This document shows positions 3,156-19,635 of a stretch of 64,000 nt of DNA, piece after piece. The stretch spans positions 62,001-126,000 of the forward strand of contig ML210201.1 of NCBI GenBank assembly GCA_004369085.1, written 5' to 3'. The notes under the pieces are model-generated. The model did not search any database. It saw only the letters and a list, made by a program, of their open reading frames with translations, and was not told the origin of the DNA. This DNA comes from Coprinopsis marcescibilis. Its lineage: Eukaryota; Basidiomycota; Agaricomycetes; Agaricales; Psathyrellaceae. Within the stretch, counting starts at the first letter, position 1, and every line of letters starts with the position of its first letter. The translations under genes were made by a program, and so were the position numbers.

Positions 3156-3329
3156 ATGGATTCCTTCATCGTCCTCCCCATCATTGATACCCCCACCAAC
3201 GAGGAGACTGGCGGAGGCAGCGGCGGAACGCAATACTGCGTCGTTGCCCAACGACCCACCATTGATACCCCCGCCGACTTTGAAACCGGCGGAGGCAGCG
3301 GCGGGACGCAATACTGCACCATTGCCTAA
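3156..3329 (+). CDS. CaaX pheromone-like peptide precursor, two-module, copy 1
   Basis: This is a single-exon gene of 57 residues. It starts MDSFIVLP, then has two tandem 26-residue modules: IDTPTNEETGGGSGGTQYC followed by VVAQRPT, and IDTPADFETGGGSGGTQYC followed by TIA and stop. The C-terminus CTIA is a CaaX box, so farnesylation and carboxymethylation of the last cysteine are expected. MDSF starts and CaaX ends are hallmarks of basidiomycete mating pheromone precursors. The internal CVVA is a second CaaX-like box that could be used only if the chain is cut after it. A likely processing point is before TGGG in each module, which would give an 11-residue lipopeptide; this is inference. An intron-like segment with GTAAGT and GTGTAG follows the stop. 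No STE3 receptor is nearby. Confidence 0.65.
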   Translation: MDSFIVLPIIDTPTNEETGGGSGGTQYCVVAQRPTIDTPADFETGGGSGGTQYCTIA

Positions 3330-4839
3330 ATCTAGGCTCACCGCCATCGACATGGTAAGTCCCGCTTCCCGCCTTTTTGCAACATCGACTCTAACAACAT
3401 CGTCTCCCCGTGTAGCTCTAATAAGCATATACCCGTCGTTATCCGACCCTTTTCTAACCTTTAAGCCAACAATAATTTTGGCCTTCGGCCTTAACCTACA
3501 ACTTCGACCTTCTTCTACCCTAATGTCACTTTTGTAATAAATTCCCCGTGGCTCTCTGTATTTTCCCATGGGTTTAATGTGATTAATATTAAAGCATAAC
3601 TGTGCTGTCGTACCTTGAAGTAGCATATATACCATCTTTACCAGCTCGACGGTATAAACTGGTACGAAAGGGTTATACAGTTCAAAGAGGGGCCGGCAAA
3701 CAAAGCCCACGCGAGTGTGTCGGAACGCGTTGAGTCCGGTCAGTACTACGCAATACACCCGGATTACTTCCGGGCCATTACAGCCATGTTACCCCATTGA
3801 CTTTTGACGCGCCATTATTATGAGATACCGGTCATGCATGAAAGGTTGAGACCTAAGTCGCCGGGGTCTAAACTCTCGCAGAAGTTCCGACAGCAATGCA
3901 GAATCAGTACGGAAGCCAAATCTCTCATATATAGAAGTCTTTCCGACTAGCGGGTCAGACTTCAGTGAGCCCTAATACGTGCGGGTCTAATGCATGCTTG
4001 ACAAAATCGATGGACTGAGCAAACAAGCGCCCATGTAAACATGTGTCTCATCGTAGATGATCCAATGCTCAACCTGTGCTGTGCTCTCCGACTCACATAG
4101 CGCACAGCCATATATGTCAGACCCGGTGGCTTTTTGGAGATAGAGAAACGATGCTTTCGATAAAGCCACCATGATAGTGATCGTCTGCACACAACGCACA
4201 CAAAGCTCTTGACCTCTACGACGTCAGTTCAAGCAATACACGCAGCAGCTAGCCACGCAGGTCTGAGCTGATGACTCGCCTAGTCGTATGGCAGGGACAC
4301 GACAGTATCAACCCCCGAACTGCCATAGTGGAAATGAACATCAAAGGGAATTGGAGGTGATCAGGCGAAACAACTCATTAAACACGATTGATCCTTGCGA
4401 CGCATGTGGTCCCATTGCGTACTAGAGTCTACTGACTCTCTATTGTAGCGTCTGGTCTATTCAATTCAAACCAATTGTGCAGCCGGGGAATCACACCGAA
4501 ACATAATAGTTTATGCCGGCCAGGTCTCGCCAAAGACAATTGTCTATTTTTTTAGACTTTACAGTGTGGGCGACAGACCTTTCTGGCGTGTCTGTCCACA
4601 CAACGCCACTCCCCGAGGCACAATAAATGCTCAACGTCATATGGCTGGATTAGGACGCAAAACTAATTCCGGCGCTTAGCTCACGTTACATTTGAAACAC
4701 CGGGCTTTCGTTCACTATATTCCAGGGCGATATTTTGGTAGCCGCTCGAGGTATAAGTACTAAGTGGGTCTCTGCGGATGTTCCTCAGACACATTGTCGC
4801 AAGCAAAGTTTCTACCACACCACATCCACAATAACTTCA
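3330..4839. other. 3' region of copy 1 and spacer to CaaX peptide copy 2
   Basis: No gene is seen. Bases 3330-3620 are repeated at 5014-5300 as part of the duplication; both contain a possible 3'-UTR intron (donor GTAAGTCCCGC at about 3356, acceptor CCGTGTAG before CTCTAATAAGC). Bases 3760-4470 are unique and hold no recognisable feature. Bases 4495-4535 carry the second copy of the shared upstream block, and GGTATAAG at about 4750 is TATA-like. Confidence 0.55.
4495..4535 (+). promoter_or_regulatory. Shared upstream block of CaaX peptide genes, copy 2
   Basis: The sequence GGGGAATCACACCGAAACAT followed by ATGCCGGCCAGGTCTCGCC lies about 305-345 bases upstream of the ATG at 4840. It matches the copy 3 block (GGGAATCAGACCGAAACA ... 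CCGGCCGGGTCTTCCC) more fully than copy 1, and both are preceded by CAATTGTG. Confidence 0.45.
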
Positions 4840-5013
4840 ATGGATTCCTTCATCGTCCTCCCCACCATTGACACCCCCACCAACGAGGAGACCGGCGGAG
4901 GCGGCGGCGGAACGCAATACTGCGTCATTGCCCAACGACCCACCATTGATACTCCCACCGACTCTGAAACCGGCGGAGGCAGCGGCGGGACGCAATACTG
5001 CACCATTGCCTAA
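4840..5013 (+). CDS. CaaX pheromone-like peptide precursor, two-module, copy 2
   Basis: The gene encodes 57 residues without introns. MDSFIVLP is followed by the modules IDTPTNEETGGGGGGTQYC + VIAQRPT and IDTPTDSETGGGSGGTQYC + TIA stop. It differs from copy 1 at only a few residues: the first module has six glycines in a row and an internal CVIA instead of CVVA. The start lies 1,684 bases after that of copy 1, and the duplicated unit covers about 800 bases including promoter and 3' region. As in copy 1, the terminal CTIA predicts prenylation. The predicted peptide TGGGSGGTQYC of module 2 is identical in copies 1 and 2, so the pair would supply the same signal. It could instead be a prenylated small protein with another role. 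Confidence 0.65.
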   Translation: MDSFIVLPTIDTPTNEETGGGGGGTQYCVIAQRPTIDTPTDSETGGGSGGTQYCTIA

Positions 5014-17640: not shown

Positions 17641-18648
17641 ATGGGCATTGTAGCTTCAGTAATTGACGAATCCTTTCCTCCCAAATCCAAGTTCAATGTA
17701 GACGACATTCCTGATCTCAGCGGAAAGGTCGTCATTGTAACAGGAGCAAACTCGGGTGAGTACGCTACAGGAACGAAACTGAGCTTCACATCCTATTCAA
17801 CAATGCGTAAGCTGTGGTAGATCGTCAAGTAACCTGAAACGTCTAACGTGTAGATTGTAGCGGGATCTTACAACCCCCAATAGAATGGCTCACCAAGAAT
17901 GGATACGACCTCCAAATTGGCAGTATGGTGCTCGGACATTTCTACCTCACCAAACTTCTCCTTCCCGTCCTCATTTCAGGCGCTAAATCATCGCCAGATG
18001 GGAAGTCGAGGGTAGTCCATACGTCATCGATCGGTTCCCTAGGACCGAGTGATTTTGACTTCAATGTTCTCAAAGATGGGCCCGCGCGTCGGAAGATGCA
18101 CCCAGGTAAACTTTACTCTCTGGCCAAGCTTGTACGTCTGTTCATCTGAATACGCTCATCGGGTTTAATCTCATCTTTTTGGCGGCACCCAGGGAAACGT
18201 GCTCCTCTCAAACGAGCTTGCAAAGCGGTATGGTGATCAGGGCCTTGTCTCCATCTCATGCAACCCAGGAAACCTCGAAAGTGACCTTTTACGCCATTCT
18301 CCTTGGTTGTTAAAATTCGTCATTGTGAGTCGATCTATGCTTCCGCTGCTTGTCAAGGACGCAATCAAGTTGATAATCTGACGATGGTTGCGGCAGGGTC
18401 TGTTTCTACATCCGACAAAACTAGGTGCTTTGACGCAGCTCTGGGCGGGAACATCTGCAGAAGCGTCGCAGCTGAATGGAGAGGTGCGTCTAATAACCGT
18501 TACCCGATGGAATAATCTACCGAAGCTGATTAATATCCAGTACCTGATCCCTTGGGCAAGAGTGGGGAAGCCAAACGTACTTGCACTCGACTCCAAGCTC
18601 TGTAGTGATCTATGGGAGTGGATGGAAGAACAGGTTCAGGATGTTTGA
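17641..18648 (+). pseudogene. Short-chain dehydrogenase with deleted NAD-binding core
   Basis: This is a paralogue of the SDR at 5796. It begins MGIVASVIDESFPPKSKFNVDDIPDLSGKVVIVTGANSG and then jumps within a few bases to the equivalent of exon 4 (NETELHILFNNA at about 17775-17809). The stretch that should carry the second half of the cofactor motif, the first helix and about 55 residues up to the second strand is missing. The rest is well kept: NNAGILQP, VVHTSSIGS, catalytic YSLAK, YGDQGLVSISCNPG, GALTQLWAG and the C-terminus YLIPWARVGKPN. The introns after about 17809, 18132, 18324 and 18483 correspond to the intact gene, while the intron after NVLG is absent. No splice combination I tried restores the missing fold, so I call it a pseudogene by internal deletion. 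Confidence 0.75.
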
Positions 18649-19461
18649 GGGTGGACTTGGTACCCGTAGGACTCCAACCCTTTTCACCTAGCCCTGAGAG
18701 GGCATTACGTCCTGTATCATAGACTATTAACAATCTCTTGCCAGTTGAAACCACGTTTAATGAATAGGCGCCCACTCAGAACAAGGTTACCTTTTTAACT
18801 ACGCACGCGTTATTGGGGACTACCAATCAACAGGTATAGCCAATAGCCTACCCTTACATCTGGGCTTCCCTGATGGCTATTCCGCAATCCTTGTGAACGA
18901 CTCAACCAACTAATTTGCGGCGGTGTCGTCGCGTGCCCAGGGAATCCGCGTTCCCACAGCAGAACGTTCACAGCGCTAAACTCGGATGGAAGGAACACAA
19001 ATTGAATTGAATACTCACCACCTCATATACTCGGACATTGACTTATTGTTAATGCCGGCAAACAGGCATGCCCAATTGTGCTCCACCGGGAATCAGACCG
19101 AAACACAATAACAATACAAACGGACATACCGGCCGGGTCTTCCCAATACACTCGCATCTAACAATTACACTTTTGTACCACTTGGAAAAGCTAGCCAAAT
19201 TAGTCTCCAGCGTGCACAATCTGAGAACTCATACCTAATTCAAACAATAACGATGGATCATGATGACGGCTAGGGTGGTTAACGCAGGCGCCGCCCGTCT
19301 CATATTCACCCCGGTGATTTATGAAGTGTTAATCTCAAAAGTGTGGAGCTGCAGGAGTATATAATCTAGCTCGCTTCGAGGGTGATTCTTCAGTTCTTCA
19401 GAGCTAAAAGCAAATCAAAAGTCCTCTACCTCTACCACTACCACTACTACCACTACTCGCA
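18649..19461. other. 5' region of CaaX peptide copy 3
   Basis: No gene is seen. The shared upstream block of the CaaX genes is at about 19095-19145. A TATA-like GAGTATATAATC is at about 19355, roughly 105 bases before the ATG, and a CTACCACTA repeat lies in the leader at about 19430-19458. Confidence 0.5.
19095..19145 (+). promoter_or_regulatory. Shared upstream block of CaaX peptide genes, copy 3
   Basis: GGGAATCAGACCGAAACACA and then CGGACATACCGGCCGGGTCT lie about 320-370 bases upstream of the ATG at 19462. The block combines the parts seen before copies 1 and 2, so it is the most complete form. Confidence 0.45.
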
Positions 19462-19635
19462 ATGGATTCCTTCATCGTCCTCCCCACCATTGACACCCCC
19501 ACCAACCAAGAGACCGGCGGAGGCAGCGGCTCAACATCATATTGCGTTATCGCTCAACGCCCCGTCGTTGATACACCCACCAACTTTGAGACAGGCGGAG
19601 GCGGCGGTTCCACTTCTTACTGCGTTATTGCCTAA
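19462..19635 (+). CDS. CaaX pheromone-like peptide precursor, two-module, copy 3
   Basis: The gene encodes 57 residues in a single exon: MDSFIVLP, then IDTPTNQETGGGSGSTSYC + VIAQRPV and VDTPTNFETGGGGGSTSYC + VIA stop. The length and module phase are exactly those of copies 1 and 2, 14-16 kb away. The predicted lipopeptide core differs: TSYC before both CaaX boxes instead of TQYC, and the terminal box is CVIA rather than CTIA. If these are pheromones, copy 3 would encode a different specificity. The sequence outside the modules has diverged strongly from copies 1 and 2, but MDSFIVLPTIDTPTN is almost unchanged at the nucleotide level, which points to selection on the protein. A spliced 3' UTR is possible (GTACG at about 19690, TTTCACAG at about 19749). 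Confidence 0.65.
   Translation: MDSFIVLPTIDTPTNQETGGGSGSTSYCVIAQRPVVDTPTNFETGGGGGSTSYCVIA

Follow-up and report, generated by a model that had tools for sequence, protein, structure and literature searches.

Two-cassette genes for putative pheromone-like CaaX lipopeptide precursors in the mushroom Coprinopsis marcescibilis

A stretch of 64,000 nucleotides of Coprinopsis marcescibilis DNA carries three short genes, w1, w2 and w3, whose predicted products consist of two similar modules, each ending in a cysteine box of the CaaX type. The window is this whole stretch, bases 62001-126000 of contig ML210201.1 (hereafter C56; 166,767 bases) in an assembly of 36.3 Mb and 448 contigs. The question that the locus raises is whether the internal module of such a protein gives a product of its own. 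Our computational analysis implies that w1-w3 are two-cassette precursors of a-type (CaaX) lipopeptides of the non-mating-type pheromone-like class, a reading to which we give a probability of roughly 0.7. The internal module looks functional as far as sequence comparison can tell, because the two cores of one gene match each other far beyond what shuffling produces despite silent differences at up to 10 of 11 codons.

The three genes are open reading frames (ORFs) of 57 codons plus a stop on the + strand. An earlier interpretation of this DNA, made from its letters and referred to here as the sequence-only reading, had described them with an MDSFIVLP N terminus, two modules per protein, an internal box (CVVA or CVIA) with QRP behind it, and CTIA (w1 and w2) or CVIA (w3) as the terminal box, and all of this was confirmed at the positions listed below. 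Each core of about 11 residues stands between an acidic P-x-[ND]-x-E leader and a box of the form C-aliphatic-aliphatic-X (C-T-aliphatic-A at two of the C termini). All three proteins pass the Pfam cut-off of 22 bits for PF08015, the fungal mating-type pheromone family, with scores of 29.9 (w1), 31.4 (w2) and 42.7 bits (w3). Together with the selection, the co-variation of the cores and the retention of the boxes described below, this membership upholds the multi-cassette pheromone-like interpretation that had been proposed. The features, all on the + strand, are as follows.

3071..3076, +: TATA box of w1, at -85 (TATA pattern scan)
3156..3329, +: w1, two-module pheromone-like precursor gene; 57-aa ORF inside an 81-aa frame, PF08015 29.9 bits
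3207..3239, +: internal core of w1, TGGGSGGTQYC (sequence); same as the terminal core, with 2 synonymous codon differences
3237..3254, +: internal box CVVA of w1, then Q and R; putative processing site (sequence; basic Cys+4/+5 in 66/80 relatives)
3285..3326, +: terminal core of w1, TGGGSGGTQYC, with CaaX box CTIA (sequence)
3355..3415, +: probable intron in the 3' untranslated region (3'UTR) of w1, GTAAGT...GTGTAG (sequence pattern)
4752..4757, +: TATA box of w2, at -88 (TATA pattern scan)
4840..5013, +: w2, two-module pheromone-like precursor gene; 57-aa ORF, PF08015 31.4 bits
4891..4923, +: internal core of w2, TGGGGGGTQYC; 1 residue off its terminal core
4969..5010, +: terminal core of w2, TGGGSGGTQYC, with CTIA (sequence)
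5039..5099, +: probable 3'UTR intron of w2 (sequence pattern)
19358..19363, +: TATA box of w3, at -104 (TATA pattern scan)
19462..19635, +: w3, two-module pheromone-like precursor gene; 57-aa ORF, PF08015 42.7 bits
19513..19545, +: internal core of w3, TGGGSGSTSYC; the terminal core of w3 differs from it by 6 synonymous changes and 1 amino acid
19591..19632, +: terminal core of w3, TGGGGGSTSYC, with CVIA (sequence)
19690..19749, +: probable 3'UTR intron of w3, GTACGT...TTCACAG (sequence pattern; the duplicate gene c56d has the same pattern)

The frame of w1 holds a second ATG at 3084, upstream of 3156, which gives the longer frame of 81 aa; the start at 3156 is more likely, because the TATA box sits at 3071-3076. 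A script scan of the 64-kb window for ORFs that end in CaaX and for starts resembling MD[STAN]F, in which introns were ignored, returned no additional gene of this kind. No signal peptide was seen, by eye, in the 57-aa MDSF proteins. The Gly-rich 57-residue precursor is likely disordered, and among solved structures there were two weak matches (E 0.12 and 0.37), which we did not accept as relatives.

The sequence-only reading had described three genes; the family in this genome is larger. At least 14 intact two-module genes are present on six contigs: six on C56, three in tandem on C47, two on C176 and one each on C132, C141 and C216. This count is a lower bound, the genome search scoring the best candidates only; it comes from searches of the genome with PF08015 (21 rows) and with the w3 protein (17 rows), read together with the translations. 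Single-module precursors are also present, one each on C86, C71 and C37 and two on C122, and the one on C37 (L019) ends in TGGGSGSTSYC followed by TIA, its core being the internal core of w3. TQYC and TSYC, which had been put forward as two specificities, are two among several core types in the genome. The gene c141 (L016, C141:48189-48359) encodes a hetero-cassette precursor, with GSRGSTSYC as its first core and RAKGAVSYC as its second. A single-module gene on C122 (L017) has a core that departs from this second one at a single position, which suggests that cassettes are exchanged.

The main evidence on the internal module comes from comparing the two cores of each gene. They are identical in 9 of the 14 genes and differ by one residue in three more. 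As DNA they are often far apart: in c176b, 10 of the 11 core codons differ between the modules with zero amino-acid changes, and in c176a, c132, c216, w3 and c56d there are 4-7 silent core codon differences with at most one amino-acid change. Serine is written with TCN in one module and AGY in the other in three genes, and a CGT/AGA difference for arginine was found as well. Summed over nine of the ten first-found copies (c141 was left out of the summed module comparison), the differences between the 11-codon cores of modules 1 and 2 fall on 43.75 of 87.3 synonymous sites and on 11.25 of 209.7 nonsynonymous ones. Therefore the identity of the cores, judged from their codons, is not simply recent copying, since silent differences abound where the cores match as protein; on the same evidence, it is selection that preserves the likeness of the two cores at the protein level in most genes. 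The leaders behave differently from the cores. Over the 14 genes, core identity is 0.913 within a gene as against 0.741 and 0.680 at the same module between genes, whereas the module-1 leader has an identity of 0.894 between genes and 0.595 to its own module-2 leader. Without c141 and c56f the contrast is seen for the leaders of both modules, with 0.685 within genes and 0.896 and 0.783 between them. Because leaders resemble each other between genes more than within, the module was apparently doubled before the genes multiplied, and changes in the two cores apparently went together.

The same tendency is observed in other mushrooms. Searches of protein collections gave 170 proteins among the matches listed (three C. 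marcescibilis proteins already being in this set as P0001, P0002 and P0003), and 11 further C. marcescibilis proteins brought the total to 181; the large searches scored about 8,000 candidates sharing most words, and one gave the best 120 of 124 matches. At least two modules were found in 114 of the 181 sequences, 80 of them non-redundant (a narrower variant of the filter had given 79 and 54). Excluded were 9 sequences whose end is not Cxxx and 58 that have no internal [YFLNS]C[VIT][VITA] located 16-36 residues from the terminal Cys. The named two-module sources belong to the Agaricales, apart from one species of Corticiales, Punctularia strigosozonata. Among the former are, besides C. marcescibilis, Hebeloma cylindrosporum, Hypholoma sublateritium, Collybia nuda, Pholiota molesta, Tricholoma matsutake, Termitomyces, Gymnopilus dilepis, Candolleomyces and Ephemerocybe; the placement was looked up for C. 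marcescibilis and Termitomyces. PF08015 matched 29 of the 52 members of alignment A2 (E 1e-3). One ENA-derived protein, P0121, comprises three modules whose cores are identical. Two models from Candolleomyces efflorescens, P0130 and P0135, which are among the 9 excluded sequences, are of a three-cassette type and look like truncated annotations.

Across the 80 precursors the within-gene core identity is 0.863, against a mean of 0.520 and a maximum of 0.578 in 10,000 shuffles, and the two cores coincide fully in 42 of the 80, where shuffling reached 8 at most. A control with the most similar other gene of each precursor was more demanding: the own second core was closer than that of the nearest gene in 57 cases, further in 13 and tied in 10, while for the leaders the same comparison gave 33, 37 and 10. 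By this control the excess of within-gene likeness is confined to the cores.

The internal box was counted separately, because the main filter itself demands it. When second modules were detected again by core similarity alone, with the box not required, 106 proteins were obtained (near-duplicates kept); the internal Cys is kept in 105 of them and the C-[VIT]-[VIA] box in 104. Behind the box there is a second regularity: K, R or H stands at Cys+4 or +5 in 66 of the 80 precursors and at +6 in 0 of 80, and elsewhere in the precursors such residues make up 95 of 3955. Among the 36 distinct tails, 28 contain a basic residue (AK, AR, FAK, FAR, FNR, AQR, SR, TK and AH are examples), and 6 of the 8 tails without one have Q at +4. 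The sequence-only reading had noted that this design requires an extra cut after the internal box; the requirement holds, and the basic residues sit where such a cut would be expected.

The proposed maturation runs as follows. For the a-type class, a-factor-like maturation of a terminal cassette is established. The terminal cassette of w1-w3 would accordingly be farnesylated, lose its AAX, be methylated, be cut at its N-terminal side near the acidic residues and be exported without a signal peptide. For the internal cassette, a cut at or close to the basic residue behind its box would have to come first. With that residue at +4 the cut would expose CaaX, and with it at +5 CaaX and a further residue; the usual maturation could then proceed, so that one translation would yield two near-identical farnesyl peptides. 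The genome has six ICMT-family matches on five contigs, and Kex2-type P domains are present in it. It is uncertain whether a box extended by one residue is tolerated; the pheromone precursor FvPP1 of Flammulina ends in CAAXW (PMC3140503).

Several observations weigh against this reading. As regards the cores, those of c141 and c56f are dissimilar within the gene (7 and 5 of 11 residues), the five TQYC genes show merely 1-2 silent codon differences between modules, and the module-2 leaders are without contrast over all 14 genes (0.569 between, 0.595 within). In the wider set the leaders are also alike within a gene (0.433 against a shuffled mean of 0.177 and maximum of 0.247), therefore common descent within lineages accounts for some of the likeness of the cores; the sequences in these tests are related, and p-values from them are too small. 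As regards the boxes, P0126 and P0074 (the latter outside the 106) have Ser at the internal Cys with the terminal box kept, which makes them natural test cases for the dispensability of the internal cassette. If K and R only are counted, 46 of the 80 precursors have a basic residue at Cys+4/+5, and K, R and H are all absent there in 14; in 24 of 80 the K or R is at +5, which would leave CaaX plus one residue. Nine C. cinerea relatives among the matches listed are single-module or lack the box. As regards the protease, the QRP of C. marcescibilis, with R before P, is a poor Kex2 site. Additionally, basidiomycete a-type pheromones are made in the cytoplasm (PMC9769878), away from Kex2, and Kex2 is thus unlikely as the enzyme of the internal cut.

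One could argue from part of these points that the likeness of the cores arose at the DNA level, by gene conversion or repeated recent duplication of modules, and not by selection on the product. Cores that are more alike within genes than between them, leaders that share this property in the wide set, and the small silent divergence of the TQYC genes are all what such a process would leave, and recent conversion is therefore possible in those five genes. In c176a, c176b, c132, c216, w3 and c56d, however, silent differences at 4-10 of 11 codons are accompanied by 0-1 amino-acid change, an argument that applies to the DNA of C. marcescibilis. Conversion may add to selection there and cannot replace it, and we regard it as an improbable explanation of the whole. 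Somewhat less improbable, and still unlikely, is that only the terminal cassette matures and that the internal one is a leader or spacer derived from duplication and is degraded. The standard form of farnesyltransferase requires a C-terminal CaaX, the last residue of the box is A in 77 of 80 terminal and 50 of 80 internal boxes (the other internal ones being mostly F, S and T), and the single-module or box-less C. cinerea relatives are also in line with this. Yet a discarded spacer is not expected to keep its cysteine in all but one of the proteins found by core similarity alone, nor to have a core that tracks the terminal core of its own gene in preference to that of the nearest relative while the leaders do not. 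The fate of the internal cassette could be addressed directly with c141 and c56f, whose differing cores could show whether the internal CaaX box is freed and farnesylated; for rhodotorucine the freeing of internal boxes was an open question in 2010 (PMC3068285, PMC3236058).

Could the genes instead be functionless repeat fragments? They do lie in duplicated blocks (window 2434-5314 against C47; window 19.0-24.0 kb against an inverted copy on C56), and a decayed two-module copy is present at C56:23763-23909. Nevertheless, this explanation was rejected as scarcely credible because of three observations: the selection on the copies, their TATA elements and the homologues in other Agaricales. The ratio of nonsynonymous to synonymous change (dN/dS), proposed beforehand as a check for an unselected repeat, is below 1 in 45 of 45 pairs of the ten first-found copies and ranges from near 0 to 0.57, with w1-w2 the highest and one dS saturated. 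A TATA element lies 64-123 bases ahead of the ATG in 14 of 14 two-module genes, the background being 0.043 per random 76-base stretch; the pattern was picked after inspection of the first ten upstream regions. A GT..AG intron pattern was found downstream of the stop in 8 of the 14 genes, w1-w3 among them, as a pattern only and without a background rate, and 3'UTR introns are reported for the A. bisporus homologues (PMC8305134, PMC4101180). CAAAG, on either strand, occurs within 400 bases upstream of 11 of the 14 genes at scattered positions, and no pheromone response element is claimed.

The surroundings of the genes were also compared. The tandem pair w1/w2 and a gene resembling short-chain dehydrogenases (SDR) recur on C47 (L052) as three tandem copies and then a similar stretch; window 2434-5314 and C47 are 84% identical over 2.9 kb, and the SDR-like part (5786-6123) is 69% identical. 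The gene w3 lies within a large inverted segmental duplication (window 19042-24025 against C56:16029-19996, in pieces 85-89% identical), which includes the ORFs 22339-22890 and 23243-23620 (- strand), without a Pfam match. SDR-like ORFs adjoin both w1/w2 and w3, and a functional cluster with them was considered and set aside: the w1/w2 and C47 cases form one duplicated block, and no SDR-like match was seen in the few kb fetched around the remaining two-module copies. We treat the neighbourhood as hitch-hiking; the SDR label itself is a reading of translations, neither of the two exons tested having a Pfam match. An aldo-keto reductase gene (window 27179-28904, - strand, PF00248 match on one exon) has a relative adjoining the pheromone gene on C132 (L043:373-1902), probably by coincidence. 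Window 39821-45958 (- strand) holds two adjoining related genes, adenylate-forming-enzyme-like by translation, which share 44% identity over 109 aa (41777-42139 against 44794-45285).

PF08015 is the same Pfam family as that of the mating pheromones, and one could take w1-w3 for strict mating-type (B-locus) genes. Only C24, C40 and C210 carry STE3 matches (E up to 0.01), and the two-module contigs C56, C47, C176, C132, C141 and C216 have none at E 0.01; linkage beyond contig ends is out of reach in this 448-contig assembly, and a longer-range one is possible. Single-module pheromones with an ER cut site are located on C24 and C210. Since the STE3 matches sit on other contigs, the two-module genes are outside the mating-type locus as far as the assembly shows. 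Furthermore, TGGGSGGTQYC and TGGGSGSTSYC, which follow EE, QE, FE or SE, resemble the published non-mating consensus GGGSGNGAYC / GGGSGNNAYC. A strict B-locus origin is thus very unlikely. Several pheromone-like genes and STE3-like receptors of mushrooms are unrelated to mating, and neither what they do nor what they pair with is known (PMC8305134, PMC4101180, PMC8161036), and receptors without a known ligand are described in Schizophyllum (PMC8161036). The likely role of the two-cassette products would be self or developmental signalling independent of mating type, in which ligandless STE3-like receptors may, as a guess, be involved; the cores are defined candidate ligands for such orphan receptors. 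A wider proposal, to which we give slightly less than an even chance, is that polyprotein precursors of a-type lipopeptides with 2-3 cassettes are widespread in Agaricomycetes, that their internal boxes, each with a basic processing site beside it, are cut free in the cytosol and then farnesylated, and that the products, kept alike by selection, serve a mating-type-independent signal via ligandless STE3-like proteins.

How does this design relate to systems already known? Two cores, each with a CaaX-like box, occur in 3 of 3 window genes and in 114 of 181 sequences, a layout like that of rhodotorucine. The rhodotorucine spacer ends in Lys, and the rhodotorucine cores are not known to be related to those of w1-w3; in contrast to the genes studied here, rhodotorucines of red yeasts act as mating pheromones and are encoded at the MAT locus. 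The comparison with rhodotorucine A and RHA2 had been drawn in the sequence-only reading and is apt, as tandem peptides with CaaX-like spacers between them are described there, with maturation enzymes unknown in 2010 (PMC3068285, PMC3236058). Precursors of the tandem CaaX kind have been reported from Rhodosporidium, Hypocreales, rusts and Microbotryum (PMC3068285, PMC3236058, PMC10977897). HPP1, the hybrid h-type precursor of Trichoderma and other Hypocreales, is comparable by its description, with a repeated motif, a terminal CaaX and up to three prenylated peptides proposed; unlike w1-w3, it is an ascomycete protein and essential for male fertility. MFA1 of cereal rusts and the Microbotryum precursors also have tandem pheromone repeats, three in rust MFA1 (PMC10977897). 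Rust MFA1, however, is associated with the STE3.2-3 receptor at varying distance, and its first repeat is conserved while the second is species-specific, so the repeats are not kept identical (PMC10977897). As for Agaricomycetes, the suspicion that no precursor of this layout had been described held in the open literature searched, where we found no tandem CaaX precursor (one may be in print elsewhere); it did not hold for sequences as such, many of which are already in public protein databases.

The closest known relatives are the non-mating pheromone-like precursors of Agaricomycetes, which are described with Gly-rich cores and an unknown function (PMC8305134, PMC4101180). Those of C. cinerea, L. 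bicolor, A. bisporus and Pycnoporus share with w1-w3 the MD[SA]F start, a charged cut site, a Gly-rich core of 10-13 residues and a C-terminal CaaX, as well as genes scattered away from receptors and a 3'UTR intron (PMC8305134, PMC4101180). That the doubled design recurs in many mushrooms suggests that a mode of producing fungal signal peptides has gone unrecognised. In A. bisporus, as described, each precursor gives one mature peptide, and both papers place the box at the C terminus, whereas here there are two cassettes, and in some relatives three, with a box for each.

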